The notes beneath the pieces were generated by a model that worked only from the letters and a program-made list of their open reading frames with translations, was not told where the DNA came from and ran no database searches. A program made the translations under genes and the position numbers. A stretch of 64,000 nucleotides of DNA, from positions 31,523,958-31,587,957 of the forward strand of contig NC_089722.1 in assembly GCF_035083965.1 (NCBI RefSeq). The letters run 5' to 3'. Origin of the DNA: Branchiostoma lanceolatum (lineage: Eukaryota > Chordata > Leptocardii > Amphioxiformes > Branchiostomatidae). Below, one piece after another: positions 8,640 to 45,519 of this stretch; the first letter of the stretch is position 1, and each line of letters opens with the position of its first letter.

Positions 8640-10310
8640 CAGTGAATCATCTTGTTGTTGTCGGAAACTATGTTGGTTGTCATTGACAATTTTTGAGTCT
8701 TAAAGTGCTGCATCAAAGAGCTGACAACTATATGTTCCAAGATTTTACAACCAATACATGTAAGCGAAACCGGCCTATAGTTGGCGGGATTGTACTGTTC
8801 GCCCTTCTTGAAAATTGGAGTAACATACGCAGTCCTCCAGTCATCTGGGACAACACCAGACGCCAGTGATGACTGAAAGATGACGGTTAACGCAGGTGCC
8901 AGCTCCACCGCAAGTTCCCGTAGTAATTTGGGATTCATGCCGTTTGGACCCGGTGCCTTATGCGGGATGAGCTTCTTCAATAACTCTGTGACTCCCTCGC
9001 GTGTGATGTTAATGGAATTTATTTCAGGTATGGTTTTGGTGGACATACCTGACTTGTTCACAAAGTCCTCATGTGTGTATTGCTTCCCATCTCCGAAGAC
9101 CGATTGGAAGTGATTGTTCAGGAACACCGCCCTGTTCCTGGGGGTCAGTTGTGAGCCGACCGTCTTTCATAAGCGGAACGATGCCGACATGACTGGAACG
9201 CTTGTTTTTTATAACCGCCCAGAACTTCTTGTTTCCTGCTTTATAGACAGTTGCCTCTTCGATGAAAATAGAATTAAGATAGTTCCAATAACTATGTCTT
9301 ATCAGTCGTTGAAGCAAACCCTTAACCTCTTCTCTCAGACCGAGTTCGCCGGTTTTCTTCATCAGACGGTATTTTTTATTTCTCCTGCGAATGAGCCTGC
9401 GAATGCTCGGAGTGATCCACGGTTGACTGGGCTTAGGTCTTGACGTCTTAAGTGGAACAAATTTCTTAATGGCTGTCAAAGAGCATCTTTGAAGACGTGC
9501 CAAAGTTCTTCCGTTGAGCTGTTATTGCACTAGTCCTGAACTTCTGCACTAAGTGTCTTAGCTGCTTCCCTCAAGCCATCCCAGTCTGCCCTGGCATAGA
9601 GAGGGATCTAGCGTTGTGGTTGTTTCTGCCTTCTGGCACTTGTGTTAATCTCACAGTATGGGATACAATGATCGGAGCGGCCTGGGATAACTTCCACCCG
9701 GGGTACCATGTCCGGGAGATTTGTAAGGAATAAATCCAACGTGTTGCGAATTGGTTGTTTAACCAGTTGTTCCCACCCGTTATCATACAATAAACTCGAA
9801 GAAAGTTTTGGTGAATGTGAGGATACGGTGACCTTGGTTTCAGGGTGGTTGTAGACCAGTCCCAGCCTGGAAGGTTGAAATCACCTCCTATGAGTAAGGC
9901 TGCATTCTGTAGTCGGGATGCTCTCTGAAGCGATGTACCGAGTCGTACCGGGCTAGGTTCATCTCCGACGTCAGGTCTGTAGAAGGCAGCCACGTATACA
10001 GGCCGCCTGCCTCTCAGTTTGACACGTACCCAGAGGAGCTCGCATCCATCCACTTCCAGCTCCGGGGCTGTGAAGCTGTCAAGATTACTGCGGACGGCAA
10101 CTAAACTTGACTCCTCCACCGCGACCGCTCCTGTCTCTCCTATGTACCCTAAACATGTCTGGAAAATTTTCTGCGGTTGCAATAGTTGGGTCTAGCCATG
10201 TCTCTGGTTCTATATAAATATCGGGTTTCAGGCTTTCCAAGAGATATGGTAGTTCTGCTCGTTTTGAACTAGCAGATTGGAAATTAATATTCAATAGCCG
10301 TAGTGGTCTT
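8640..10310 (-). mobile_element. CR1/L2-like LINE, endonuclease and partial RT
   Basis: Read on the minus strand from about 10300. The endonuclease part begins NINFQSASSKRAELPYLLES with PDIYIEPETWLDP and continues into LLIGGDFNLPGWDW. It is followed by a linker and the first RT blocks: INITREGVTELLKKL, PHKAPGPNGMNPKLL, WRTAYVTPIFKKG and [13 protein letters not shown] stops before the catalytic FADD block, so the 3' half is missing. Several frame breaks split the coding region. A dead, 3'-truncated copy of the same broad clade as the LINE at 54.7-60.3 kb but a different family. Confidence 0.8.
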
Positions 10311-11605: not shown

Positions 11606-12022
11606 TAATGGAATGGAGATCTTTATTGCACATTTCTGCCACACTTGGCTAAGTACAGGTCACAACAAAACAAAATAACAAGTACACTTAACGGTTAAAA
11701 AATGATATGACTCTCTTTAGACAAATTCTACTTCTCCTCCGTCGCTGTTCGGTTATAGTAGATATAAAAGAACAGACATGATTTTTCTAGGGAGGTTTGT
11801 CTAGCCGCATTAGGAATATGGATTTTTGTACAGTACTTAAATGTACGGAAGTACGGAAATAGGTTTTGTACAAGCTTACACTGTTTATTTCTTTCTTGGG
11901 TATACATGTATAATCTACATTCTACCACAAAATGACATTCGTCTTCCGTCAGTATTCTATTCAAAGTACAATGTTTACTTTATCGTTGTTCTAGAGGAGT
12001 GCGGGTATGTCTTCCCGTTTCT
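11606..12022 (-). mobile_element. 5'-truncated LINE tail
   Basis: Minus-strand 3' end of a LINE. It shares its 3' end (reverse of GATCTTTATTGCACATTTCT) and the coding end EDECHFVVEC with the copy at 24.25-25.91 kb. Only about 415 bp remain, so no domain survives beyond the Cys/His-rich C-terminal motif. Confidence 0.7.
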
Positions 12023-12450: not shown

Positions 12451-12577
12451 GTAAGAGCTATTTTTATCGTTAATGTTTTCTGGTAGGTGCTTGTTCTGTC
12501 GTGAATTGCAATAAGAAGTAAATTTGCGATCGCAAATTGATGGGGAGGGGGGCTATGAGCTGTAATGCATGGGATGT

Positions 12578-13109
12578 AGCCGTGGCGACTAACGAAGGGA
12601 GTTTTTGCTTGATATTACATATACTTTCCCTTCTTAGTCGTGGGGCACGCCAGAAATTCACTTCTACTCTAGCGACGCCGGCCTTTTAACTTGCACGCCG
12701 GGCCCGATTCTTGTTCTCCCTGAACTCCCAACGCCCTTAGGTACCTGCGCCGCCAGTCATGTGCGTTCACTCACATGACTGGATTTGACCAATCAGACTG
12801 TACAAGCGATGACGTCACTCTCTTTGCATTTTTGAACGAAAAATGGCGGCCCCGATGCTGTTTTCCATTGACTTCTGCCGCATCAACCCCCATTTTGGAT
12901 TAACTTGTGGTTTCCGGCGTTGCTAAAGTGCCCGGCGGCGCAGGTAAGGGCGTTGGGAGTTCAGGGAGAACAAGAATCGGGCCCGGCGTGCAAGTTAAAA
13001 GGCCGGCGTCGCTAGAGTAGAAGTGAATTTCTGGCGTGCCCCACGACTAAGAAGGGAAAGTATATGTAATATCAAGCAAAAACTCCCTTCGTTAGTCGCC
13101 ACGGCTAAC
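12578..13109. repeat. Inverted repeat with ~180-bp arms and promoter-like loop
   Basis: Arms at about 12578-12757 and 12928-13109 are reverse complements with only small differences, including 4 extra bases (GGTA) in the left arm. The loop of ~170 bp is GC-richer. It sits inside the putative first intron of the zinc-finger gene. No target-site duplication is obvious, so a MITE, a foldback or an in situ inverted duplication are all possible. Confidence 0.8.
12754..12860 (+). promoter_or_regulatory. Promoter-like core: CCAAT, CRE, YY1-type motifs
   Basis: The loop of the inverted repeat begins with a perfect 10-bp dyad (CAGTCATGTG facing CACATGACTG, 8-base loop; 12754-12781). It continues with GACCAATCAG (CCAAT box), GATGACGTCACT (full CRE palindrome) and AAAATGGCGGCC (YY1-type). 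This combination is typical of CpG-type promoters. Promoter activity is inferred from motifs only. Confidence 0.45.
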
Positions 13110-13566
13110 ATCTACCCTTTGTCGGTTTGTACCTTCAATATACCGTTAGAAATGGTGCACAAATCACGAGCTATGTTGTTGTATCCTTAGGGAAATATTC
13201 GAGTTCTCAGATAAGCCCGAGTACGAATGTGCAGGGTTAAAGGTCAAGACCCCTCACCAGGCTTGTAAACAGTTGTCGTAGTAGTCGCCTCGACCATTGT
13301 CTTAATTTGCATAACGACGCCCATGCGGGTTTTGTTTACGTCTCAGGGGCCTTCACCTTTGACCTTTCTCTTCATCATTATCATATCGGGCGACTTTCTC
13401 TGACTATGTTTTTTTCTCATTATATATTTTCTCAGAGATGGCGGGGTAATATGTGGACCTACTCCTGTTAAAAAGCCTTCAGACTGCGAACGAGACGCAT
13501 ATCAAAGAGGAGACGGGATACACTGGATGGCAACAGGATAAAGAAGAGAACCAGATCCCAGAGAAC

Positions 13567-19026: not shown

Positions 19027-19222
19027 TACAACTGCAGAATATTATTAAATCATATAAGTGGTAAACAGATAGTTTATTGCAATCTAATACCAGGGCAAAA
19101 GTCAAGATTTATTTAATCGTTCATCCAAAATTGCAACTTTCACAGAAAAAGCAGGTTGCAAAATTATTCACCCCCCAAGAGGGTCTGTCCTACGTACTTC
19201 GTGCAGCACCCCTAACTTGGGT

Positions 19223-20020
19223 CTAACCTGCAATTACCTGGTGCAAACGGGAACAATAGCCTGTCACAAGCTTCTGGCAACTCTCTAAATGAATTGTGGC
19301 CCATTTCTCGCTGGCAATGGTCTCCAGCTCAGCAATGTTCTGAGGTCCACGTGCCACAACAGCTTTCTTCAGATCCCACCAGAAATTCTCAAATGGGTTT
19401 ACGTCTGGAGGCTGTAATGGCCACTCAAGAACCTTCCAGCCCTTTTCTCTAACCTGGCTTGAAGCCTTTTTGGATTTTGATGTGTGTTTTGGGTCATCGT
19501 CTTGCTGGAAAGTCCAATGACGCCCCAGTTTCAACCTTTTGATAACAGACTCAGTGACATTCTTGGCCAGAATAGACTAGTATTGTTTGAATCCGTGATG
19601 CCTTCATCATGGAGGATATCCCCAGTGCCATTAGAAGCCATACACCCACACCGCACCCCAGACCCATCACCATGTTTCACGATAAGCAGGGTGTTCTTCT
19701 CCGCGTACGAATTCATTGAGACACATATCTCTGACCCAGAGGACTGAAAAGGTAAAGCTTTGTTTCATCAGTCCATAGGACAGTGTCCCAATACTCTTGT
19801 GGCCTTAACAGGTTTGTTTGAGCATACTGCAGGCTTCATTGCTTGTGGCATGGCTTCTGCAATGGTGTGGGTCTTGGGGTCCTGGCATTGAGCCCTTCAG
19901 CATGCAGTGTGTGGCATACTGTGTCCTCTAAAACATCAGTTCCTCCTTCAGCCAAATTGTTTTTCAGGTCCTTTGCAGTAAGATTAGGGTCCTTGACCGG
20001 GAATCTTACCCTGGCTACTG
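19223..20020 (-). pseudogene. Tc1-like transposase, decayed
   Basis: Minus strand. From the centre outward one reads LTAKDLKNNLAEGG, CHTLHAEGLNARTPRP, QEYWDTVLWTDETKL (first catalytic Asp region), KHGDGSGVRCGC, then an open 103-codon stretch with FQQDDDPKHTSKSKK (second Asp) and PDVNPFENFWWDLKK (third acidic residue). It is broken by stops and frame shifts in the middle part, and the DNA-binding N-terminus is missing. Confidence 0.75.
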
Positions 20021-20061
20021 AAATTCTGACCTAGAATGTCACCGAGTCTATTATCAAGAGG

Positions 20062-20373
20062 TTGAAACTGGGGCATCATTGGACTTTCCAGCAAGACGAT
20101 GACCCAAAACACACATCAAAATCCAAAAAGGCTTCAAGCCAGGTTAGAGAAAAGGGCTGGAAGGTTCTTGAGTGGCCATTACAGCCTCCAGACGTAAACC
20201 CAATTGAGAATTTCTGGTGGGATCTGAAGAAAGCTGTTGTGGCACGTGGACCTCAGAACATTGCTGAGCTGGAGACCATTGCCGGCGAGAAATGGGCCAC
20301 AATTCATCTAGAGAGTAGCCAGAAGCTTGTGACAGACTATCGTTCCCGTTTGCACCAGGTAATTGCAGGTTAG
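20062..20373 (+). pseudogene. Second, inverted transposase C-terminus
   Basis: A 103-codon + strand frame nearly identical to the minus-strand one at 19534-19223: FQQDDDPKHTSK, PLQPPDVNPIENFW, AELETIAGEKWATIH. It keeps the family's NPIENFW where the other arm has NPFENFW. It contains the second and third catalytic blocks only, so it cannot make a working transposase alone. Confidence 0.8.
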
Positions 20374-21088
20374 ACCCAAGTTAGGGGTGCTGCACGAAGT
20401 ACGTAGGACAGACCCTCTTGGGGGGTGAATAATTTTGCAACCTGCTTTTTCTGTGAAAGTTGCAATTTTGGATGAACGATGAAATAAATCTTGACTTTTG
20501 CCATGGTATCAGATTGCAATAAACTATCTGTTTACCACTTATATGATTTAATAATATTCTGCAGTTGTATTGTTCCTCATTTTGCCAAAATGTCCAAAAT
20601 GTGAAGGGGGGTGAATAATTTTGCATGCAGCTGTAATACACAGTCTTTTTATCCAAACCGGCCAGCCGCTGCGCGGATCACGTGACAAAGCGGGATTTTC
20701 AAGATGGCGTCGTCGAGATGCGGCGACCGAAAAACGATGTGACACGCCGAAATGGAGCAAAATAATAGCTCACAGGCAATTTAATATGTCCTAGGGACGG
20801 CATGCACCGGTTCAATGCTTTAGAATCAAAATATCGTGGGTAGAAACACTTTGAAACATCCCGCCCCCCAACGCCGGTTTGCATAAAAAGACTACGTGTA
20901 CGTGTTTCCATAAAATTCGTCCGTTTTCCATAAAATTCGTGCGTATTCACATAAGGTTCGTGCGTATCCCATAGTGTGCGTGCGTTTCATGACACATAAG
21001 GTTCGTGCGTATTCACATAGTGATTCGTGCGTTACTCATAAAATTCGTACGAATCTCATAACATTCGTGCGAATGCTTAGGCACCCCT

Positions 21089-21244
21089 ATTAAAAGCGAT
21101 AAGGATGGAGATTGGAGATGTCTCCAGGAGTGATCATAGGCATAATCTGTATGTGGGTCCGATAACTACTCTGCAGTTAAGAAATCTACATTAGAGGCAA
21201 ACATATCCAGGTTGGCTGTGAGGATTCTGTTAGATGTGCGAAAG
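21089..21244 (+). pseudogene. Downstream zinc-finger remnant
   Basis: Between the right end of one element and the left end of the giant palindrome, the + strand reads NYSAVKKSTLEANISRL (about 21166-21216). This is recognisable as the CDYSAVSKSxLxxH half of a finger of the upstream gene. It shows that the ancestral finger array extended at least this far before the 2.6-kb insertion. Confidence 0.5.
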
Positions 21245-21251
21245 AAGGGCT
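21245..21251 (+). repeat. Left target-site duplication AAGGGCT
   Basis: Seven bases identical to those immediately outside the right end, directly adjoining the first base of the inverted terminus TATGGCATC. Confidence 0.75.
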
Positions 21252-21279
21252 TATGGCATCATTTCCGTGTCAAAATTAC

Positions 21280-21760
21280 GTACGTAAAAAACGTCACGTT
21301 TTGTCGTTTATACGTGACGTATTGGGGGTCAATACGTCACGTATGAAAGGCCTACGTCACGTATGCCGGAACGTACGGATACGTGACATACATATGGTTT
21401 TGCAATTTCCGTGTCAAAATTACCTGCATAAAAAAACGTACGATTTCTCGTCCAAACGTCACGTATAACAGGTCATACGTCACATAAGGCATATACGTCA
21501 CGTACTAAACGTGACATACATATGTCGTGGCAAAATATCGTATCTACGTAGACGTCACGTTTTGTGGTTATACGTTACGCACATAAATGGGTTATGTTAA
21601 CGTACCACGTTAACGTAACGTATGTACGCCCTTCAAGTTATTATAACAAACAACGTTAACATAACGTAGTCGTAGTTATCATAACGCATTACGTTAACGT
21701 AACATAGTCATTTACGTTATCATAACGCAGAGCGCTAACGTAACGTACACTAGAGTGAAC
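21280..21760. repeat. Subterminal ACGTCACGT / GTTAACGTAACG array, left
   Basis: About 480 bp dense in ACGTCACGTAT-type words (outer half) and CGTTAACGTAACGTA-type words (inner half). Many are themselves palindromic (ACGT, GTTAAC). The same block lies reversed at 31010-31495. A 9-bp difference separates the arms near 21530 and 31243. Confidence 0.8.
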
Positions 21761-22108
21761 CTTTATAATAGGCGTGTTCTGTTTACGTCATTGGTTTATG
21801 TTGTGTATAACGTCTACGATAGACGCGTTCTGGTGACGTCATCAGTTTATGTTATGTACAACGTGTATGATAGACTTGTTCTTGTGACGTCATCAGTCTA
21901 TGTTTTGTAAAAGCCGCAGCACACAATGTATTAGTGTGGGTACAAAGTAGTACGGACACAATTTTTGATGCCTGGCTAGAATATCCTTTGTGAGCATTAG
22001 CCAGATTTAAACTGTGCCGTGGGATATACTGTCTGAATTGATGAATTGAATTGTGAACCATTCTGTTCGTGTATATTCGAAAGTGCGTCATACTACGCGT
22101 CAACCCGT

Positions 22109-22711
22109 TCATTGAGTGAACTCAACAGATAGGCGATGCTCTTGTCGACTGTCCGCATCAAATCGTCGTCCAAATGCCCGAAGGTCGCGTACAGTCTTCC
22201 TATCCTCTGCCTCGTATTCGCTCAGACTTGACCACAAGCCCTTTGCGAAATCCTTCGAGCGGCTCTTGAAATGTAAATCCTCCAGGGAACGGGGAACTTT
22301 CTCGTCCCGGCGCAGAGAATCGTAGTGGACCTCGGAGCGTGCACGTCCGACCCGACACTTGCCAACGCCATGAGGTCCCTTGTGTCCCTTCACGGGTAGA
22401 GAACAAGCACGACTGTGAGCACTTGGAACCTGCCATGATCCTAGCGCGATGCCGGAAGCGGTGACCTTGAAGGACGAAGACGAACACGAGCTGGAAAAAC
22501 TTGAAATTTTACAGAGAATGGACCGCTGTGGCCGGCACGCGCCCTGTGATCGCCGAGTTACTGTCGGCGGAAGTGGTCTGAGCGGAGATGCAAAGGGGGG
22601 GGGGGGGGGGCACGTGCTCAGGACCCGTATGTCGGGGGCGGAGCTTGACCACAGAGACGCCAGACTACGCGTCAACCGTTCCATGGTGATCAGCCATTGG
22701 TTGGAAATCAA
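22109..22711 (-). CDS. Unknown ~200-codon frame, left arm
   Basis: Minus strand, reading toward the left end of the element. The middle reads CSLPVKGHKGPHGVGKC, a Cys/Gly-His/Pro/Cys motif seen near the N-terminus of assorted transposable-element proteins. It is followed by a charged region (FKSRSKDFAKGLWSSLSEYE, then DRKTVRDLRAFGRRF). I recognise no enzyme domain. The likely true start is unclear. It differs from the right-arm copy by a G-rich insertion of ~27 bp near 22590. Confidence 0.45.
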   Translation of the reverse strand: MISNQWLITMERLTRSLASLWSSSAPDIRVLSTCPPPPPFASPLRPLPPTVTRRSQGACRPQRSILCKISSFSSSCSSSSFKVTASGIALGSWQVPSAHSRACSLPVKGHKGPHGVGKCRVGRARSEVHYDSLRRDEKVPRSLEDLHFKSRSKDFAKGLWSSLSEYEAEDRKTVRDLRAFGRRFDADSRQEHRLSVEFTQ

Positions 22712-23384
22712 GGTGGTCGTGAGCTCGCTGCTTGTGTGGATTACCGCCCAGCGGGCCGGGTGACAGTTTACAGTTCACCATACTTTCTGTAAAGACGCAT
22801 TGCATTATCAGAATATGAATTTACATGAATGTTATAGCCGACTTGATGGATAAAATATGGGGAAGTATAGTAGAGCATTTGTCATCGATTGTGTAACTAT
22901 TGTGACATTCGTCCCATTCTCATCCATTTGAAACCTGAAATTGTTGTCTGGCCTTGTTTGGATCTGAAATGTTTAGATTTATGTGGGTTAGGATATGGAG
23001 GGATCACTATGTACTTCTGTGGAATACTGCCATACGGAAATAATGTTTTGGTCTGTCTATTACAATGTAAAAGCAGTGATGGGCGATGGTTTTAATCCCA
23101 TATATGACCGCGGCTACAAGTACCCGCGAGAACTAACAGACACAATAGCTGCCCGTATACATCGATTGTACTCGAAGATTCCCTCTCATTAACTTTCCAA
23201 GCCCCTTTGTGTCGATTTTGTAGACACTCTGGCAGATCACACAACAAGGTGGTCTTTATACAACCATCAGAGAATCACACCTTTTTGTCTCCAATTGGCT
23301 TATCACAATACAAACTAATGCACCTGGTAGGGAGAGCGGCAAAAAAAAAACCCGGGACATTTGATATAAAGGTCACTATCTTCT

Positions 23385-23790
23385 ACTCTCCGAGCAGAGG
23401 TTAGTGGGGCAGATCGTCACCGTTTTATCATATGCCCCGTAATTTTAGTTTGGATGGGGCTAGCAGACAAAAAACGGGGCATATATTATGATAAAACGGT
23501 GACGAGCTGCCCCACAAACCTCTGCTTGGAGAGTAGTAAGGGACAATTAGAGAAGCCCGCGGCCGTCGCTCAGAAAAAAATGATCTTTCATTGCCTCCAT
23601 TGCAGACTCCGTCCGGCCAAGGAGGTCGGTGAGGTTGTTTACTTTCAAGTTAAAGCTTTACTATTACATTTTGTTGTTATTGCTGGCCTTCTCAGTCTTC
23701 CCGGACAGCAATAAGAAGAAGAAAAATGTAATGGTAAAGCTTTAACTTAACAAAGAAAACAGCCGTAAGAGTCTGAAATGGAGGCTAGAT
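23385..23790. repeat. Two small hairpins inside the left arm
   Basis: First hairpin: about 23385-23540, with arms carrying CTCTCCGAGCAGAGGTT and GTCACCGTTTTATCAT facing their complements. Second: about 23590-23785, with arms around CTTTACNATTACATTTT facing the complement, framing a CCGGACAGCAATAA loop. Both are repeated in the right arm (28980-29420) and, more diverged, beside the centre (26480-26770). Confidence 0.7.
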
Positions 23791-23819
23791 CTTTCAACCA
23801 ATATCGATCTTCTAGGAGC

Positions 23820-24010
23820 TCTTCACATCTGCTTTGAAGCCCAAGCATCTGCTTGGATCACAAATATCTGATGGATCCCAAACATCTGCTTGGAGCCACT
23901 ACCATGTGCTTTTCTAGATAATTTTCCATTGCTCCCAAGCAGATCTATAGGTCCCAATATCTGCTTTGAGTCCCAACATCTGCTTTAAGCCTCTATTATC
24001 TGGTCGGAGC
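23820..24010 (-). repeat. CAAGCAGATGTTTGGGCTC minisatellite, left outer
   Basis: Imperfect ~20-bp units; in + orientation they read ATCTGCTTGGAGCC. Three more blocks occur at 26329-26450, 28035-28160 and 28800-28990, placed symmetrically about the palindrome centre. Confidence 0.7.
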
Positions 24011-24249
24011 TCCAAACACCCAATGGAGCAGAACGAGAAAGGCACAAGCCTCACTCAGAGTGCCAGCCCTTTTTAGCTTTCCACGTCCGCTTGCCACGAC
24101 CCGCTACCTGGCTGAAAAAAAGAGCTGACACTCAGCAAGCACTCAGGCTAGAAAGGCATATCTATATATAGAAAGCACATGTTAGTGGCTCCAAGTATAT
24201 GTTTGAGCTCCAAGCAGACCCTATCTCCATAGCCGACTTCCTTCATAAA

Positions 24250-25912
24250 TGAATGAATGAAGACCTTTATTGCACATTTCTGCCACACTTGGCTAAGTAC
24301 AGGTCACAACAAAATATAATACAAGTACAGTTAGCGGATACAAAAGAATATGACTATCATTAAATAAATTCTACTTCTCCTCACTTTTCGGTTATAGTGG
24401 ATATAAAAGAACAGACGTGTTTTTCAATGGGAGGTTTGTCTAGTCGCATAAGAAATATGAATTTTTGAACAGTACTTAAATGTGTGAAGTAGGGAAATAG
24501 GTTTTCTACAAGTTTATACAGTTCATTTCTTTCTTTGGTATATAATTAAAGGTTAATGACCCGCCCCGAGGTGTATATGGTGTCTTAACGCCTGGCCATG
24601 TGCTATAACCACCGAATAAAACCACCGAGTGAGCGAAGCGAACGAGGTGGTTTTATGAGGTGGTTATAGCACATGACCAGGCGTTATGACACCATATACA
24701 CCGAGGAAGAGGCGGGTCATTAACGTTATTATCATATAGCGTATCCAAACTGACGCATATAAGAGTAGACAATTTCTGTTTGACGCATAGATCCCTTATA
24801 CTATTAAGAATGCATTTCAGAATTAACATTTGTCCTTTATTAACAGAAGATGATGAAGAAAATGTACAACTGTTGCCTGATTTATTTATTTCAACCACAC
24901 AGGATAGGAGGGTCGGTTTCAGGTCAGTCAGAAAATGTTATCATTGAAGAATCTCCCTGCAACATGACCTCAGATAAACCTGAATAGAACACAGGTTCTT
25001 TGGCCAGCAGGAAATGGAACGCGCGGAACCTTAGATAGAACGTGGTTTCTTTGGCCAACAGCAAATGGAACACGCGGAACATTTTTGGGAATTTTAAATT
25101 TGTTTTCCCCTTTTCATGTATTCTAAGGAAATTTTTAGGAATTCTAAGACAATAAAGATTTTTTTAACAAGGTTAAGAAAAAGATTCATCAAATAGATAC
25201 CACCTCTACAAAATGCAACGGTTATAAAGATTTTTAAACAAGGTTAAGAAAAAGATTCATCAAAAAGATACCCCCTCTACAAAATGGAACGGTTGTGTTC
25301 TGACATGACGTCAATAAGTGGTGTGTTATGGCGTGATAACAGACCACTTATTGTGGGCAATGGTGGCTTCTGATTGGTCGACGCCATCTACCTATGTGAT
25401 AATACACATTCTACCACAAAATGACATTCGTCTTCTACTCTATTCAAAGTACAATGTTTACATAATCGTTGTTCTAGAGGAGTGCGGGTATGTCTTCCCG
25501 TTTCAATATGTAGTTTGTGGCAGCTGATTCTTAGTCTTGTGAATGCATTCCTGACCCTCATATTTGAATAACTTAGATATTTTTCTTCATTATAAGTAGT
25601 TTTGAATAATCTATATGATCTTAACTTATATTTGGAAGCCCCACCTTTGTTGTCGTTATGTATTTCTTTCAGAAACGTTTGGAAGTAAATGTCTTTTATC
25701 CGTTGGCCAATGGAACTAACAATTTGTAACGTATTTGAATTATATGAAATTGGTAGGTGCCATAAGAAAGCAAACCCGCTCTCCTCTAAAGACTTACGTA
25801 TTCCTGTCGCCCAACATTTCACACCAGATTTGTCTAGATCTAACTGACAGCAGAAAGCATCTGCTTGAACAGGAATTTGAACTTTTGAATGAACCCCATA
25901 TTTCAGAGCCAT
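24250..25912 (-). mobile_element. LINE inserted in the left arm only
   Basis: Minus strand. The 3' end is an ATTCATTCATTCA tail at 24250-24262. The coding end runs from 25910 downward, with LRISCHKLHIETGRHTRTPLEQRLCKHC and EDECHFVVEC (a Cys/His C-terminal motif common in amphioxus LINEs). The right arm at ~28568 gives the empty site; CATA is repeated at both borders. The element is 5'-truncated and carries a nested insertion (24550-25404). Its presence in one arm shows that the palindrome existed before it. Confidence 0.75.
24550..25404. mobile_element. ~855-bp insert nested in the LINE, with hairpin
   Basis: The related LINE tail at 11.6-12.0 kb is continuous where this one is split, so this segment is an insertion (ATAAT repeated at the borders). 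It begins with a ~155-bp hairpin (24555-24715). The hairpin arms contain GGTGTATATGGTGTC and CTATAACCACC, and its loop contains GAGTGAGCGAAGCGAACGAG. The remainder includes two diverged copies of an AAAGATTTTT-AACAAGGTTAAGAAAA block. No coding frame. Confidence 0.6.
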
Positions 25913-26328
25913 ACAGCTGACTCTATTTGGCCAATTTCTACTATTTCCCCAGCGACCCGCAGAGACTGATAGAGAAACTTTTATTGTGAGACCATTTACA
26001 AGGCTCAACCATAAAACCTCCTTGGCTCAACCAAGGCGCGAACCTCCCACTGGGACGTGCGCGGGTGACTGGGTTTGTGCCAGAAATCGGTCATAAAAAG
26101 ATTAGTAACCCGGACATTCGTACGGCTGTTAACATTACCACGCGCGAGGAGGGGAGGCGACAATACAAAAGGTCACTATTGAATAGAAATATTCCGCCCT
26201 GTCTGAGTTATCGCACATCTTATAATTAGGTTGCAAAACATACTTCTTCTTCCAGTTTGATACGGTCTTCGCAACATATAGATCTGCTTGGAGATTATGG
26301 CACATCTATGATCTAGAAAAGAACATAT

Positions 26329-26450
26329 TCCAAGCAGATGTTTGGGCTCCAAGCAGATGTTTGGGCTCCAAGCAGATGTTTGGGATCCAAGCAGATAGTT
26401 GGGATCAAAGCAGATGTTTGGGATCCAAGCAGATGCAGAGAGCTCCAAGG
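26329..26450 (+). repeat. AAGCAGATGTTTGGGCTCC minisatellite, left inner
   Basis: Five to six near-perfect units of ~20 bp. Much more regular than the outer block, and mirrored at 28035-28160. Confidence 0.8.
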
Positions 26451-27069
26451 AGATCGATATTGGGTGAAAGATTTAGCCTCCATTGAAGACTCCTTCCGGC
26501 TATTTTCTTTTTCAAGTTTTACTATTACATTTTTCTTGTTGCTGTCCGGGATTAGGACCGGAAGGCCAACAATAAGAAAAAAAATGTAATGATAAAGCTA
26601 TAACCTGACAAAGAAAACAGCCGGAAGGAGTCTGCAATGGAGGCTATGAAAGTTACGGCCGGGCTTCTCTTAGCATACTTCTCTGCAAACATAGGCTGGT
26701 GGAGAGTTTGTGACCTTTTTATCAAATGCCCCGTTTTTTTGCCCGCTCTCCCCACCAGGTGCAAGTTTGTGATATTTACTGGAGACAAAGAGGTGTGGCT
26801 CTCTGATGTTTTATGACAGGAAGATTGTAAAAAGACCGCCATGTGTGGTCTGTCAGAGTGTCTAGCCGATCGATGGAAATATGTGCGCAAACAGTCATAC
26901 CTTTATGATCAAGTGGATTCACTGGAAGTATGGTCCAACACTGCGCAGCTTTAAACCCCTAAGAAATGTATGGTGCTGACTATGTCTTATGAAGTGCCCA
27001 CCTCCCCCCTCCACCCATAACTCTCGGGGGCAAACCCCTTCTGATCCCTTCTGGCAGTGATCGCTGCTA

Positions 27070-27250
27070 AAGTGTTGGGAATCTGGTTTCAGTCTAATCT
27101 GAAATGGGACAAACAAGTCTGCGAGTTTACCAAGAAGGCCAACAAATTTATGTTTATGCTCCGGAGACTTAAGACGTTCGGTCTTTCGACGGCAGATTTG
27201 GTGTACTGCGGCTAGACCTATCCTGGAATACTGTGTACCCGTCTATTAGC
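27070..27250 (+). pseudogene. LINE reverse transcriptase remnant
   Basis: The + strand reads FQSNLKWDKQVCEFTKKANK then FMFMLRRLKTFGLS and, after a frame change, PILEYCVPVY. These are the thumb-side motifs downstream of the RT core in CR1/Jockey-like LINEs (LGV..DLKWD, LRRLK..GL, PxLEYxxPVW). Less than 200 bp survives. Confidence 0.65.
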
Positions 27251-27430
27251 CTCTACCAGTCTCTGCGGGTCGCTGGGAAAATAGTAGAAATTGGCCAAAT
27301 AGAGTCAATTGTATGAATGGAGTCCGCTATCATGGAGAGAGGGTCCAATAGGCCGTAGCCGACTCCCTTCATATAATTGACTCTATTTAATTTCTACTCT
27401 TTTCCCAGCGACCCGCAGAGGCTCGTAGAG
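27245..27430. repeat. ~180-bp inverted repeat in the spacer
   Basis: CTCTGCGGGTCGCTGGGAAA (about 27255) faces its complement at about 27405-27424, with ATAGAGTCAATT and CCGACTCCCTTCAT words inside. The same sequence, single-armed, occurs at about 25930 and 28520 in the two long arms. Confidence 0.65.
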
Positions 27431-28034
27431 CCTATTATAAAAGTACAGGGGAGTTGATACCGCCGCCCGTTACGAACAAAAACATTACCTCCGTGTGCCA
27501 GCATTTATAGATCAGCAGAGATTGTACTCGTATACAAAACTCCCTACCCTGGGAGACCAGGCACTGTATATCATTCCACAGAGGTACATAGTGATCCCTC
27601 CATATCCTACATAAATCTATATATTCCAGATCCAAACAAGGCCAGACAATAATTTTAGGTTCCAAATAAATGAGAATGGGACGAACTTGCATCTGGTGGG
27701 GAGAGCGGGCCAAAAAACGGGGCATTTGATAAAAGATCATAAAAAGGTCACAATCTCCCCCACAAACTTTTGCTTGGAGATTAGTAAGAGACAGTCAAAG
27801 AAGCCCGGCCGTCACTCAGAAAAAATATATTTCATAGCCTTCATTGCAGACTCCTTCCGGCTGTTTTCTTTTTCATGTTATAGCTTTATCATTACATTTT
27901 TTTTCTTATTGTTGGCATTCCGGTCCTAATCCCGGACAGCAACAAGAAAAATGTAATAGTAAAACTTGAAAAAGAAAATAGCCGGAAGGAGTCTTCAATG
28001 GAGGCTAAATCTTTCACCCAATATCGATCTCCTT

Positions 28035-28160
28035 GGAGCTCTCTGCATCTGCTTGGATCCCAAACATCTGCTTTGATCCCAACTATCTGCTTGGATCCCA
28101 AACATCTGCTTGGAGCCCAAACATCTGCTTGGAGCCCAAACATCTGCTTGGAATATGTTC
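28035..28160 (-). repeat. AAGCAGATGTTTGGGCTCC minisatellite, right inner
   Basis: Exact mirror of the 26329-26450 array within the opposite arm. Confidence 0.8.
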
Positions 28161-28799
28161 TTTTCTAGATCATAGATGTGCCATAATCTCCAAGCAGATC
28201 TATATGTTGCGAAGACCGTATCAAACTGGAAGAAGAAGTATGTTTTGCAACCTAATTATAAGATGTGCGATAACTCAAACAGGGCGGAATATTTCTATTC
28301 AATAGTGACCTTTTGTATTGTCGCCTCCCCTCCTCGCGCGTGGTAATGTTAACAGCCGTACGAATGTCCGGGTTACTAATCTTTTTATGACCGATTTCTG
28401 GCACAAACGCAGTCACCCGCGCACGTCCCAGTGGGAGGTTCGCGCCTTGGTTGAGCCAAGGAGGTTTTATGGTTGAGCCTTGTAAATGGTCTCACAATAA
28501 AAGTTTCTCTATCAGTCTCTGCGGGTCGCTGGGAAAATAGTAGAAATTGGCCAAATGAGTCAGCTGTATGAAGGGGGTCGGCTATGGAGATAGGGTCTGC
28601 TTGGAGCTCAAACATATACTTGGAGCCACTAACATGTGCTTTCTATATATAGATATGCCTCCTTGCTGAGTGTCAGCTCTTTTTTTCAGCCAGGTAGCGG
28701 GTCGTGGCGAGCGGACGTGGAAAGCTAAAAAGGGCTGGCACTCTGAGTGAGGCTTGTGCCTTTCTCGTTCTGCTCCATTGGGTGTTTGGAGCTCCGACC

Positions 28800-28990
28800 A
28801 GATAATAGAGGCTTAAAGCAGATGTTGGGACTCAAAGCAGATATTGGGACCTATAGATCTGCTTGGGAGCAATGGAAAATTATCTAGAAAAGCACATGGT
28901 AGTGGCTCCAAGCAGATGTTTGGGATCCATCAGATATTTGTGATCCAAGCAGATGCTTGGGCTTCAAAGCAGATGTGAAGAGCTCCTAGA
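28800..28990 (+). repeat. AAGCAGATGTT minisatellite, right outer
   Basis: Mirror of the 23820-24010 block, with the same degenerate units. Confidence 0.7.
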
Positions 28991-30087
28991 AGATCGATAT
29001 TGGTTGAAAGATCTAGCCTCCATTTCAGACTCTTACGGCTGTTTTCTTTGTTAAGTTAAAGCTTTACCATTACATTTTTCTTCTTCTTATTGCTGTCCGG
29101 GAAGACCGAGAAGGCCAGCAATAACAAAAAAATGTAATAGTAAAGCTTTAACTTGAAAGTAAACAACCTCACCAACCTCCTTGGCCGGACGGAGTCTGCA
29201 ATGGAGGCAATGAAAGATCTTTTTTTTTCTGAGCGACGGCCGCGGGCTTCTCTAATTGTCCCTTACTACTCTCCAAGCAGAGGTTTGTGGGCAGCTCGTC
29301 ACCGTTTTATCATAATATATGCCCCGTTTTTTGTCCGCTAGCCCCATCCAAACTAAAATTACGGGGCATATGATTAAACGGTGACGATCTGCCCCACTAA
29401 CCTCTGCTCGGAGAGTAGAAGATAGTGACCTTTATATCAAATGTCCCGGTTTTTTTTTGCCACTCTCCCTACCAGGTGCATTAGTTTGTATTGTGATAAG
29501 CCAATTGGAGACAAAAAGGTGTGATTCTCTGATGGTTGTATAAAGACCACCTTGTTGTGTGATCTGCCAGAGTGTCTACAAAATCGACACAAAGGGGCTT
29601 GGAAAGTTCATGAGAGGGAATCTTCGAGTACAATCGATGTGTACGGGCAGCTATTGTGTCTGTTAGTTCTCGCGGGTACTTGTAGCCGCGGTCATATATG
29701 GGATTAAAACCATCGCCCATCACTGCTTTTACATTGTAATAGACAGACCAAAACATTATTTCCGTATGGCAGTATTCCACAGAAGTACATAGTGATCCCT
29801 CCATATCCTAACCCACATAAATCTAAACATTTCAGATCCAAACAAGGCCAGACAACAATTTCAGGTTTCAAATGGATGAGAATGGGACGAATGTCACAAT
29901 AGTTACACAATCGATGACAAATGCTCTACTATACTTCCCCATATTTTATCCATCAAGTCGGCTATAACATTCATGTAAATTCATATTCTGATAATGCAAT
30001 GCGTCTTTACAGAAAGTATGGTGAACTGTAAACTGTCACCCGGCCCGCTGGGCGGTAATCCACACAAGCAGCGAGCTCACGACCACC

Positions 30088-30663
30088 TTGATTTCCAACC
30101 AATGGCTGATCACCATGGAAGGGTTGACGCGTAGTCTGGCGTCTCCGTGGTCAAGCTCCGCCCCCGACATACGGGTCCTGAGCACTCCGCTCAGACCACT
30201 TCCGCCGACAGTCACTCGGCGATCACAGGGCGCGTGCCGGCCACAGCGGTCCGTTCTCTCTAAAATTTCAAGTTTTTCCAGCTCGTGTTCGTCTTCGTCC
30301 TTCAAGGTCACCGCTTCCGGCATCGCGCTAGGATCATGGCAGGTTCCAAGTGCTCACAGTCGTGCTTGTTCTCTACCCGTGAAGGGACACAAGGGACCTC
30401 ATGGCGTTGGCAAGTGTCGGGTCGGACGTGCACGCTCCGAGGTCCACTACGATTCTCTGCGCCGGGACGAGAAAGTTCCCCGTTCCCTGGAGGATTTACA
30501 TTTCAAGAGCCGCTCGAAGGATTTCGCAAAGGGCTTGTGGTCAAGTCTGAGCGAATACGAGGCAGAGGATAGGAAGACTGTACGCGACCTTCGGGCATTT
30601 GGACGACGATTTGATGCGGACAGTCGACAAGAGCATCGCCTATCTGTTGAGTTCACTCAATGA
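30088..30663 (+). CDS. Unknown ~190-codon frame, right arm
   Basis: Mirror copy of the left-arm frame, with the same Cys-containing GHKGPHGVGKC motif and charged tail ending EHRLSVEFTQ. It lacks the G-rich insertion. Preservation of an open frame in both arms may reflect recent origin of the palindrome or gene conversion rather than selection. Confidence 0.45.
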   Translation: MISNQWLITMEGLTRSLASPWSSSAPDIRVLSTPLRPLPPTVTRRSQGACRPQRSVLSKISSFSSSCSSSSFKVTASGIALGSWQVPSAHSRACSLPVKGHKGPHGVGKCRVGRARSEVHYDSLRRDEKVPRSLEDLHFKSRSKDFAKGLWSSLSEYEAEDRKTVRDLRAFGRRFDADSRQEHRLSVEFTQ

Positions 30664-31009
30664 ACGGGTTGACGCGTAGTATGGCGCACTTTCGAATATA
30701 CACGAACAGAATGGTTCACAATTCAATTCATCAATTCAGACAGTATATCCCACGGCACAGTTTAAATCTGGCTAATGCTCACATAGGATATTCTAGCCAG
30801 GCATCAAAAATTGTGTCCGTACTACTTTGTACCCACACTAATACATTGTGTGCTGCGGCTTTTACAAAACATAGACTGATGACGTCACAAGAACAAGTCT
30901 ATCATACACGTTGTACATAACATAAACTGATGACGTCACCAGAACGCGTCTATCGTAGACGTTATACACAACATAAACCAATGACGTAAACAGAACACGC
31001 CTATCATAA

Positions 31010-31495
31010 AGGTTCACTCTAGTGTACGTTACGTTAGCGCTCTGCGTTATGATAACGTAAATGACTATGTTACGTTAACGTAATGCGTTATGATAACTAC
31101 GACTACGTTATGTTAACGTTGTTTGTTATAATAACTTGAAGGGACTACATTCGTTACGTTAACGTGGTACGTTAACATAACTCATTTATGTGCGTAACGT
31201 ATAACCACAAAACGTGACGTCTACGTAGATACGATATTTTGATCTAAAAATGCCACGACATATGTATGTCACGTTTAGTACGTGACGTATATGCCTTATG
31301 TGACGTATGACCTGTTATACGTGACGTTTGGACGAGAAATCGTATGTAGGTAATTTTGACACGGAAATTGCAAAACCATATGTATGTCACGTATCCGTAC
31401 GTTCCGGCATAAGTGACGTAGGCCTTTCATACGTGACGTATTGACCCCCAATATGTCACGTATAAACGCCAAAACGTGACGTTTTTTACGTACGT
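31010..31495. repeat. Subterminal ACGTCACGT / GTTAACGTAACG array, right
   Basis: Mirror copy of the left subterminal block, with a few single-base differences and one 9-bp indel. Clusters of one short palindromic word at both ends of a mobile element are often binding sites for its mobilising protein. Confidence 0.8.
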
Positions 31496-31521
31496 AATTT
31501 TGACACGGAAATGATGCCATA

Positions 31522-31528
31522 AAGGGCT
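31522..31528 (+). repeat. Right target-site duplication AAGGGCT
   Basis: Directly adjoins the last base of the right terminus (GATGCCATA) and is identical to the left copy. Confidence 0.75.
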
Positions 31529-33186
31529 CTTGTAATGAAGCCTAAAGTAATCATACCTATTACTTTATAGATTTAGGTTTTGTGGTTAAGTTATGTATTG
31601 TACATATGTAATAGGAATAGATGTGTTGATTTTACCTATATCAAAATTGTGTTTTGACATTCATTGTAGAAAGGAGGTCTATAGATAGTTTTGTTTAAAT
31701 TCTTATTAACATCAGTATATTTACCTGTTAGTATAAATCTATTCTAAATAATATGTGACCACAAGAAGCAATTATGTTTAGTACTTATGTATTTAGTAGT
31801 GTAGACAACAGTATTCTCAGTGTATAGATATCAAAGTAACCTCTTGAAAACTTTGTATGTGTTTGGTAAAGATCTTTCATACGAAATGAGTGTAAGAGCT
31901 ATTCCAAGATTACCGGGTTGTAGTTTCCATAAACCGAATGTGTAGTCCTGAATGCCGTAGGTATTAGCACCATATGTGATTATAATGGCATTCTTGTTGC
32001 AATTGTTTCGAATGCTTTGGTTACATATTTGTCCCCTCTTTTATTTCTGTTACCCCATTTAACATTTTGTCAACATAAAATAAAAGTCGAAGTACAGGGC
32101 TTTTTTTGTGGGGGGGGAGATATACAGTACTAAAATTCCGTCAAAGAGCACCATTTTTAGAACGCTGGTCCCTAGCTATCCAAAATATCGAAGAAAAAAA
32201 GGTTTATGCATAGGATCACTTAGTTAGTTCAATTTTCCGTACTGAAAGTGGAATAATGTGAATCTTGAAAAGTCCTTCCACGTGCAGCACTGTGGTACAC
32301 ACTAATATTGGCTAGAGGTAAGCAAAGCCAATGATTTGGTGTTGATTTACATCGTCTGATAATTCATTTTTATTAATCTATCTTTATCCAAGGACATTTT
32401 ATAATGTCCTTGCTTTATCTAATTCTTGCTTGTGTTAGTAGTGTTATATGTATATATATACATATATATATGAGGTAAAAAAACAATTGTGAAGTAATTA
32501 TGGCAAAGATATCGATTTGTAAAAAGCCATGCAAAATATATGTTGACTTTGACCATTGTTTACAGACGGACTCATAATTTGTTGCAGCAGTGTTTCGAAG
32601 TGAGGTATCCAAACAATCCTGCTCATATCAATGAGAGTGTTCACAATATTTTTGCATGTTGCAACATCTTGCACTATGAAGTAATCAAAAGTTTTGCCTG
32701 ATGATGACTTGCATCCAAACTAACGTTTCACCTGTTGGTATCTTTTTAAATATGATTATTTTGACTAATACTAACGATAAGTCCTTCCAATATCTTCGCA
32801 TAAAGCCCAAGTAGCTTCGTTAAAAACTGACCTGAATCAACACATATTGTGCAATAAATGTAGTAATTTTGTGATTAATTTATGTTGACAAATAGTCAAA
32901 ACATGATTTCATAGAAGGTATCACGACAAAAATTATAAAAGGTTTATCTACGAACTTCTTAAAAAACCAATAGCCTTCCAACAGAATAGCTCTTGACAAA
33001 ACGACGACTTTTCCTGTTATTTATTGTTTTTATACAATGTACAGAAACTCGTATTAATTTAATGTGCGTAACTTTGGAATTCTTTGGCTTTGTGAGCAAA
33101 ACTTTACAAGTTGACAAGTAACAAAATAAAAAGAAAGTGATAACCTAATACAATGTAAAGCTAACCTCAGAAACAAACGCATCAAA
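31529..33186. other. AT-rich non-coding stretch right of the palindrome
   Basis: No gene recognised. It contains CATAAAATAAAAGTC at ~32080, a possible polyadenylation signal that might be the displaced 3' UTR of the zinc-finger gene (speculative). It also contains a TATATA dyad at ~32450 and the imperfect CAAGGACATT dyad at 32389-32412. Confidence 0.35.
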
Positions 33187-42590: not shown

Positions 42591-45230
42591 TTTACCATTA
42601 TGTATTTTGACCAGAATCCTTGAGATAAAGGACTTTGAGTGAGTTTTTGACCCCCATTCTTTTGTATTCTCCCTCTAATAGCGTTACATGTTATTCAAAA
42701 CTTATAATCCAGATCACCAAATCATTGTCCTTGACACTTGATGGATCATCATAGACATAGGTAGCAATTGAGGTATCCCAAGGGCGTGTAATTCTGTCCT
42801 TCCAGTAATATGAGTGTGCCCTAATCGTAAGTGTGTGTCACTCTGGGACGGTAACAACCATGTGTAGCCTTGATAAAGTAGAAAATGAATCGTGTACTGT
42901 GCCTTCTATGATGACCTAAGGGTGTGTCATTTTAATGACACAAGAGAAACTCAGCTATACCAATTGTGTCTCATTCCAATGACATCGGAAGAAACTAAGC
43001 TATACTAAGGGAGTGTCATTCCAATGACATATTGGGAAACTAAGCTGTGCCATAGGTGTGTCATTCCAATAATGTAGGCAAAAAAATCAGATACTAGTAT
43101 ACCACGGGTGCGTCATTCCAATGACATAGGCAAAAACTCAGCTATACCAAGGGCGTGTCATTCCAATGACATAGGGGAAGTCCGGCTATACCAAGGGTGT
43201 GTCATTCCAATGACTTAGGGGCATATCCAGTTATACCAAGGTTCTTTCATTCCAATGACATATGGGGAAATCTCAGCTGTGTCATGGGTGCGTCATTCCA
43301 ATGATAAGGCAAAGACTCCGATGGTGTGTCATTCCGATGACATCGGGGGTAATCCAGCTATACTAAGGATGTGTTATTCCGATGACAAGGGGAAACTCAG
43401 CTATACCAAGGGTGTGTCATTCTCATGGCATAGGGGGAAATCCAGCTAACCAAGGATGTGTCATTGCAATGACATAGGTGAAAACTCAGCTATAACAAGG
43501 GAATGTCATTCCAATGACATAGGGAAGAACTCAGCTTTGCTAAGGGTGTGTCATTCCAATGACTTAGGGGGAAAATCGGCTGTGCCAAGGGTGTGCTTTC
43601 CAATGACATAGGTGAAAACTCAGCTATAACAAGGGAATGACATTCCAATGACATAGGGAAGAACTCAGCTTTGCCAAGGGTGTGTCATTCCAATGACTTA
43701 GGGGGAAACTTAGCTATACCAAGGGTGTGTCATTCTCATGACATAGGGGGAAATCCAGCTAACCAAGGGTCTGTCATTCTCATGACATAGGGGGAAACTC
43801 AGCTGTGCCAAGGGTGCGTCATTCCAATGACATAGGCAAGAACTTAGCTTTGCCAGGGGTGTGTCATTCCAATGACATAGGGGGAAACTCAGCTGTGCCA
43901 AGGGTGAACTTTCCAAAGACATATGTGGAAACTCGGCTATAACAAGCAAAAGTGTGTGTCGTTCCAATGACATAGGCGGAAATCCAGCTATAACAAGGGT
44001 GTGTTCTTCCAAGGGTGTATCAGGAGTCTATGCTGCAATCTAAGAGATTAAACGGCTAGTATTACTACAGGTACCGTTGCGCTGCTTAAGTATATAGGGA
44101 CTTCACCTGTCGTCATTTTGCGACGCCGCTCAAAGGCAGAAACATAATACAAATCTCGTTTGTGTCACGACACAGAGAATGACATACTCTCATGAAAGCT
44201 TGGTCTTCACCTGTCATTAGTATTGGACTGACACGACCTGAGGAATGACAAACCCTTGATATAGCTGAGTTTTCCCCTATGTCATTGGAATGACACACCC
44301 TTGGTATAGCTGAGTTTCTCCCTATGTCGATGGAATGACTTGCTTACTTGCTTGCTTATGTCGAGACTGGACGGTCTCGAGTCGTGATGGCAGTCCATGT
44401 GGTTCTATCCCTCATCGCTTGGAGCAGACTATCAACTTCAAGGCCAGTGTCTTTCTTCAGGGTGTCAATGTATGTTGCTGCGGGTCTTCCAGGCCTCCTT
44501 TTCCCATGCCTGGGAGTCCAGAGAACCAGGTCAGCCACTTCTTCTTTGCTTCTGAGGCAGTGTCCAGCGAACTTTAACCTCCTTGTCCTGATCTTGTCAG
44601 ACAGTTTTGGTAGTCCAGCATACAGGTCCTTGTTGGTAATGTGTTGTGACCAGTGGATGTTTAGTGCTGATCTCATGAGCCTTGTGTAGCATCCATCCAG
44701 CTGCTTTTCTAGCTTGGAAGTGATTGTCCACGCCTCACATCCATACAAGAGGACTGCTTCAACCGTCGAGAGGAAAAGCCTCACTTTCAGCTTGCGAGAG
44801 AGGTTTGATCTCCAAACCTACTTCAGCTTGTTACAAGCCTGCCAGGCTGCTGCTTTTCTTGCTGCTATGTCCTTTTCTGTGCTTTCCATCCTAGATCCCA
44901 GGTACTTAAAGTCCTTTACCTCCTCCAAGGCAGTACCATCGCTTGTCTTGAGATGGAATGACACACCCTTGGTATTGTTGATTTTCCACGTATGTCATTA
45001 GAATGACCACTTCATGATTTCTCCGTATGCAATTGGAATGACAAAGCACCCTTCTGATAGCTCAGTTTCCCCCTATATTATTGGAATGACACACCCTTGG
45101 TATAGTTGAGTTTCCCCCTATGTCTTTGAAATGACACACCCTTCTGATAGTTCAGTTTCTCCCGATGTCATAGAATTATGACACATCCTTGGTGTAGCTT
45201 CATTTCCCAATGCGTTAATAAGAGTCTTAC
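42590..45230. repeat. Strand-switching ~45-bp minisatellite, module A
   Basis: Starts with a leader (ACCATTATGTATTTTGACCA... to TGTCCTTGACAC). It then has about 24 imperfect + units near GGTGTGTCATTCCAATGACA plus TAGGGGGAAACTCAGCTATA (42900-44010). A ~230-bp unique centre containing CTAAGAGATTAAACGG follows, then minus-oriented units (44245-44338 and 44946-45200). Every unit has the dyad TGTCATT-CC-AATGACA. An RTE-like LINE interrupts the minus part. Confidence 0.85.
44339..44945 (-). mobile_element. RTE-like LINE fragment inside the minisatellite
   Basis: Minus strand: EEVKDFKYLGSRME, VEAVLLYGCEAWTITSKLEK, RRLKFAGHCLRSKEE, RPGRPAATYIDTLKKDTGLE, the C-terminal end of the RT protein of RTE/BovB-like LINEs. 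The tail is a short TTGCTTAC-type repeat at 44339-44358. It is flanked by GATGGAATGAC on both sides, an 11-bp target duplication lying in a satellite unit. 5'-truncated; one stop codon within the coding part (LK*VW). Confidence 0.8.
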
Positions 45231-45519
45231 GACGCGAAATCTTCATGAAATTTAGTTTTTATTAAATGGTGTCTTTTTTGCCATAGTGAATTGTTCTTGC
45301 CGTTGCAAGTTGTGCTTTTTTTTGTGCCAGTGGGTGCTTGTTTGGTTCTCATATGTGGTTTTCTTGGAAACCAGTTCCCTACCAATGTCATTCTATAACC
45401 CTCAATGGTATGACCACCACCTGTCGTGCCCCTGGAGAAGTGACCCAGGTTTGCTACTAACGTGACGGGTGTGACCCAGTTTTGCTACTAACATGCCTAG
45501 AATGGAGGTATAGATTTTC

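Follow-up and report, generated by a model that had tools for sequence, protein, structure and literature searches.

A 64-kb stretch of the genome of the amphioxus Branchiostoma lanceolatum (contig NC_089722.1; hereafter the window, to which all coordinates refer) contains an inverted-repeat unit of 10,270 bp, located at 21252–31521 and composed of two mirror-image halves, that is best explained as a non-autonomous DNA transposon of the foldback type. We put the probability of this reading at about 0.8, a figure that covers the core of the interpretation, that is, a foldback transposon; the multi-round history of the arms outlined below is proposed less firmly. The structural features by which foldback elements are recognized, namely long inverted arms, internal repeats and a target site duplication (TSD) flanking the whole unit, are all present.

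The ends of the unit carry TATGGCATC in inverted orientation, the termini at 21252 and 31521 each starting with TATGGCATCATTTCCGTGTC, and the sequence that opens the unit and, inverted, closes it is TATGGCATCATTTCCGTGTCAAAATTACGT. On both sides the unit is bounded by the heptamer AAGGGCT (21245–21251 on the left and 31522–31528 on the right), an exact direct repeat, and the inverted similarity runs out no more than 1 bp from either end of the element (21251/31522). When 153,000 placements across the window were compared, flanking 7-mers at a spacing of 10,269–10,271 were equal in only 9, the real pair among them, so this duplication is unlikely to be a product of chance. If one more base is included at each edge, the two flanks read GAAGGGCTT and AAAGGGCTC, with 7 of 9 positions matching, and the exact repeat is 7 bp long. 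The first-pass annotation of this DNA, which had reported inverted ends with AAGGGCT outside them and had read the unit as a foldback element with a target duplication around it, is thus borne out with regard to the ends and supported with regard to the reading, given arms of 3.7 kb and an exact 7-bp TSD. A search of the window for further terminus-like sites with up to 3 mismatches returned four matches, of which two are exact and correspond to the outer ends and two lie outside the element; no second copy of the element was seen within the 64 kb.

The outermost 499 bp of the left arm (21252–21750, plus strand) carry a dense array of ACGTCAC and ACGTGAC motifs, and a like array occupies the last 499 bp on the right (31023–31521, minus strand). 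ACGTCAC/GTGACGT occurs 8 times in the left segment and 7 times in the right one. At the left end, which the shuffling test covered, neither these 8 copies (mean in shuffled sequences, 0.45) nor the 9 copies of ACGTGAC/GTCACGT were reached in any of 1,000 dinucleotide shuffles. The observed-to-expected ratio of CpG is 2.50 in the left array and 2.42 in the right array; overlapping windows placed beyond the element (n = 1,055) do not exceed 1.55. Further internal repeats include an imperfect direct repeat of about 100 bp near the left end (21261–21363 and 21405–21504, 78%), a 51-bp tandem repeat in 2.8 copies (21768–21909, plus strand, mirrored at 30863–31008) and a 38-bp tandem repeat. Multiple THAP binding sites have been demonstrated inside the long terminal inverted repeats (TIRs) of Galileo (PMC3688188), and we infer that the terminal motifs of the amphioxus element are bound by a transposase.

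The left arm (21252–26645, plus strand) spans 5,394 bp with an insert of approximately 1,667 bp and 3,727 bp without it, and the right arm (27836–31521, minus strand) spans 3,686 bp. Alignment of the two arms, the check that the first-pass annotation had called for, yields 37 mismatches over 3,665 aligned sites, that is, 99.0% identity, the differences comprising 19 transitions and 18 transversions and being distributed both outward of the insert (30 of 2,944 sites) and inward of it (7 of 721). Sites 24249–25924 were excluded from this count; they contain the insert and eight mismatches at 25917–25924 that, by eye, are a misalignment at the insert edge concealing a 1-bp indel. The indels between the arms measure 1, 1, 2, 10, 11, 13 and 27 bp, in addition to the 1,667-bp gap that is accounted for by the left-only sequence. 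Hence the near-identity of the arms reported previously holds, at a length of about 3.7 kb and not ~3.85 kb, and of the two arm differences then named, the one of ~27 bp is found and the one of 9 bp is absent from the indels.

The initial description of the unit as a near-perfect palindrome does not hold, as the center is asymmetric and each half holds an older, worn inverted repeat built of modules, here denoted A, B and X, that are about 76–85% alike. In the left arm, outer B and outer X occupy 23205–23911 (plus strand), with their mirror at 28890–29597. The left half also contains an inner X (26351–26645, minus strand), an older inverted copy of outer X with 84.2% identity at aligned sites; the corresponding inner X of the right half (27835–28130, plus strand) is 98.6% identical to its left counterpart and 84.5% identical to the right outer X. 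Over all comparisons at aligned sites, the X modules show 99.1% identity between the outer copies, 98.6% between the inner copies and 83.8–84.9% between outer and inner copies (77.6% over 331 columns for the outer–inner pair of the right arm in a BLAST alignment with gaps counted). For the B modules the respective values are 98.7% for outer–outer, 75.9–78.1% for inner–outer, and 80.6% for inner–inner over only 139 sites; with gaps counted, BLAST puts the inner–outer pieces at 70–78% and the inner pair at 75.7% (136 columns). The asymmetric center itself, about 1.2 kb in length (26646–27835), comprises the diverged inner B copies (26651–26880 and 27655–27830), an imperfect palindrome (27234–27447, 76%) and one A-type copy (27573–27685) that is 88% identical to positions 29774–29891 of the right arm. 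A forced end-to-end alignment of 306 center sites gives 63%, a value that we did not use as a measure of similarity.

The 99% identity of the arms breaks at 26645/27836, and a patchy inverted homology runs on inward from there. Because the near-identity ends so abruptly while inverted homology continues, these data suggest that one arm was recently copied onto the other, on top of an inverted structure of greater age. They further suggest that the inverted repeats were built in at least two rounds, in line with the TIR-extension model. On the strength of the X-module identities we also reject an origin in which two palindromic copies in direct orientation were fused in tandem, the two halves being related inversely.

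The sequence of events that we envisage would have begun with an older inverted unit of the form A-B-X...X'-B'-A', the copies of which are now about 76–88% alike. Later, one arm would have been recopied from the other, out to the terminus, through gap repair or gene conversion, thereby resetting the identity of the arms to 99.0%, and the last event would have been the entry of a LINE-like (long interspersed nuclear element) sequence into the left arm. As for mobility, a transposase encoded by another element would bind the terminal array, pair the ends, and cut and paste the unit into a target cleaved with a 7-bp stagger. Mobilization in trans, already suggested in the first-pass annotation, would fit the finding of no Pfam family in the six frames of 26651–31521 (the right arm and the center, translated with X at stops).

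The insert in the left arm (24249–25915, minus strand; about 1.67 kb) has a (TGAA)n tail and, by eye, CATA at both junctions, while in the right arm this site is uninterrupted. A LINE confined to the left arm had been noted in the first-pass annotation. We call it LINE-like on the basis of its tail and of a C-terminal Cys/His pattern that we take to be a LINE feature. Pfam searches found no match in three frames of the insert, and for its open reading frame (ORF) returned only GlfB_C (E-value 0.18, 11.7 bits), below the cut-off of 27. As the insert is present in the left arm alone and the site in the right arm is uninterrupted, it most likely entered after the arms had become alike. A related fragment is found at 11607–12021 and does not contain an 851-bp stretch of the insert (24543–25393), which is perhaps a nested insertion similar to a miniature inverted-repeat transposable element. 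An imperfect palindrome of about 200 bp (24539–24738) is included in that stretch.

Several considerations weigh against the proposed scenario. A single copy is in hand, so the case for mobility rests on one TSD, and no transposase source for the element is known. Recent re-duplication and gene conversion are inseparable here. The inner B copies align only over a short length, with gaps and to an uneven degree (51 bp are 96% alike), and therefore the sharp boundary at 26645/27836 could in part represent a rearrangement at an unstable palindrome center; moreover, the center holds one A-type copy only.

The alternative that survives best is that a DNA transposon with short TIRs inserted at this site and the long arms then arose by one inverted duplication in situ. 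This possibility, to which we assign a rather low probability, overlaps with the foldback interpretation and departs from it only as to the manner and timing of arm formation. Under such a scenario the TSD and the ends would look alike; the arms diverge by about 1% both outward and inward of the insert, and extension of TIRs in place by repair copying has been proposed for Galileo (PMC3573991). However, the diverged inverted copies (about 76–85%) in the halves and in the center suggest a structure that predates the 1% event, and a single duplication is disfavored because one event cannot yield both ages. Inverted duplication after insertion, which had been offered earlier as an alternative to movement as one piece, is accordingly part of the story at most.

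Less probable is the fusion of two adjacent copies of one transposon, inserted in opposite orientation and subsequently deprived of their inner ends. The presence of A- and B-type modules in the center, as though two elements had come together there by their inner portions, is compatible with such an origin, but a single TSD surrounds the whole, no terminus-like match lies within the center, and the 99% pairing of the halves would call for near-identical independent copies. We regard this explanation as improbable.

Highly heterozygous animals are prone to errors in which the two haplotypes of a locus, or one locus read twice, are joined head to head in the assembly, and the left-only insert taken by itself would be compatible with a haplotype difference. 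Such a fold is nonetheless very improbable here: at either end the symmetry ceases no more than 1 bp from a direct repeat of 7 bp, the center consists of about 1.2 kb of non-identical sequence with no sharp fold, and amphioxus haplotypes differ by 3.2–4.2% (PMC12500494), compared with 1.0% between the arms. The earlier case against an assembly fold was therefore reasonable, with the proviso that the one-sided insert alone is insufficient and that the center and the stop at the TSD are the better arguments.

Returning to the foldback element, its coding potential appears limited. A GC-rich segment of the left arm (22095–22760, 58% GC, minus strand) overlaps a 221-amino acid frame (22109–22774), and its mirror in the right arm (30010–30680) contains a 212-amino acid version (30025–30663, plus strand), so that one frame is common to both arms within a segment of 57–58% GC. 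The first-pass annotation had credited the arms with open frames of their own; this shared frame is indeed present, and its status as a gene is weak. A frame of at least 212 amino acids arose in 20 of 1,000 dinucleotide shuffles of the GC-rich segment; four of the five base differences between the arms change a residue, in addition to a 27-bp in-frame indel; no family was matched in Pfam; and the predicted model of the 212-amino acid frame is unreliable, with a mean predicted local distance difference test (pLDDT) score of 34.7. The interpretation of this frame as a real gene is, on these grounds, unsupported. Comparison of the same frame with the Protein Data Bank (PDB) gave a best E-value of 0.2, and a zinc-finger reading of its GHKGPHGVGKC stretch was considered and set aside. 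None of five ORFs of the element had a Pfam match at a meaningful score, no related DNA or protein was found in IMG/VR, and no RNA family in Rfam reached its gathering score in 21000–31800. By eye, a 14-bp direct repeat, ACTACGCGTCAACC, can be recognized at 22092–22105 and 22664–22677, bracketing the left-arm GC-rich segment as if the latter had been captured between the two copies.

Among described systems, the nearest published case that we found is copy 112 of Galileo, a member of the P superfamily, in Drosophila willistoni. This copy is 9,021 bp long with TIRs of 4,246 and 4,680 bp, is described without a transposase segment, carries tandem repeats and another transposable element in its arms, and is flanked by identical TSDs (PMC4168063). 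The earlier view that multi-kilobase arms without a transposase are rare is thereby tempered by a close precedent with a like anatomy. The TSDs of Galileo in D. willistoni are mostly 7 bp, and 8 bp in three other copies, as given in the same account, and the 7-bp TSD found here fits; the preferred target of Galileo, GTATTAC, shares no position with AAGGGCT, a difference of which one site proves little (PMC4168063). The Galileo family, as characterized there, has a P-type transposase with a THAP domain and none was detected in 26651–31521, yet copy 112 is likewise reported to be without that segment. The likeness concerns anatomy and TSD length; Galileo elements are further characterized by a conserved terminal sequence of ~40 bp. 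In D. mojavensis, the TIRs of Galileo are proposed to grow by over-long repair copying of one TIR onto the other, with recruitment of internal sequence into the inverted repeats to form TIR1-F1-F1-TIR2, a model that the amphioxus element fits; the longest TIRs in the sections describing them reach about 1.26 kb (PMC3573991), compared with 3.7 kb and a nested older inverted repeat in the present case.

Other foldback elements are more distant. Tetris of D. virilis is similar in being modular, apparently non-autonomous and endowed with internal tandem repeats, with no transposase source found according to the portion of its description considered; it differs in its TSDs of 8–10 bp, its suggested Mutator affiliation and the ~220-bp tandem units in its TIRs (PMC4079207). 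Similarly, the Tm1 Mutator/Foldback elements of root-knot nematodes share composite, Foldback-like TIRs of variable length and differ, as far as outlined in the source, in having 9-bp TSDs and members that encode a putative Phantom-like transposase (PMC3169594). An assignment to Mutator-type foldbacks such as these, with TSDs of 8–10 bp in the descriptions cited, is rejected given an exact repeat of 7 bp. The Dada elements, for which the pertinent part of the source gives TSDs of 6–7 bp, no TIRs and insertion in small-RNA genes (PMC3706591), are ruled out by the long TIRs. The Rfam search above likewise revealed no small-RNA gene at the insertion site, although it might miss a gene that the element had interrupted. 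Mutator-like elements (MULEs) with multiple TIRs offered no decisive parallel in the part of the report considered (PMC3310237). No report of an amphioxus foldback element or of the present terminus was found in the open-licence literature, covered in part through titles and the beginnings of abstracts only, with Repbase outside the search.

Other repeats are found in the window. Less than 1 kb to the left of the foldback element lies a second, smaller inverted pair (19027–20569), consisting of two Tc1/mariner-type 3' parts of 547 bp that are 97.3% identical and 449 bp apart; a DDE_3 match was found in the plus-strand copy, the one covered by the Pfam scan. A short palindromic unit at 12573–13112 has arms of about 180 bp at 97% identity, and a direct duplication at 55708–59059 (1,647 bp, 99.8% identity, 1.7 kb from start to start) sits in a frame that, judged by its translation alone, resembles a non-LTR (long terminal repeat) retrotransposon. 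Diverged repeats of either orientation fill a large region at 42914–47320, and their offsets in the self-comparison lie close to multiples of 44 bp.

Foldback elements are a potential source of chromosome rearrangements, and the origin of very long arms is unsettled. The kind of element described here is already known; the family may be undescribed. It is conceivable, as a speculative extension that we hold to be doubtful, that it represents a chordate foldback family not yet described, in which successive rounds of arm-to-arm copying lengthen the arms and leave nested palindromes that differ in age, and that the ACGTCAC/ACGTGAC array is read by the mobilizing transposase, itself from some group producing 7-bp TSDs. 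The element appears to retain inverted repeats of two ages together with the boundary of a recent copying event, which makes it a readable example of arm growth, and, with amphioxus as its host, the range of multi-kilobase foldbacks would come to include a chordate.

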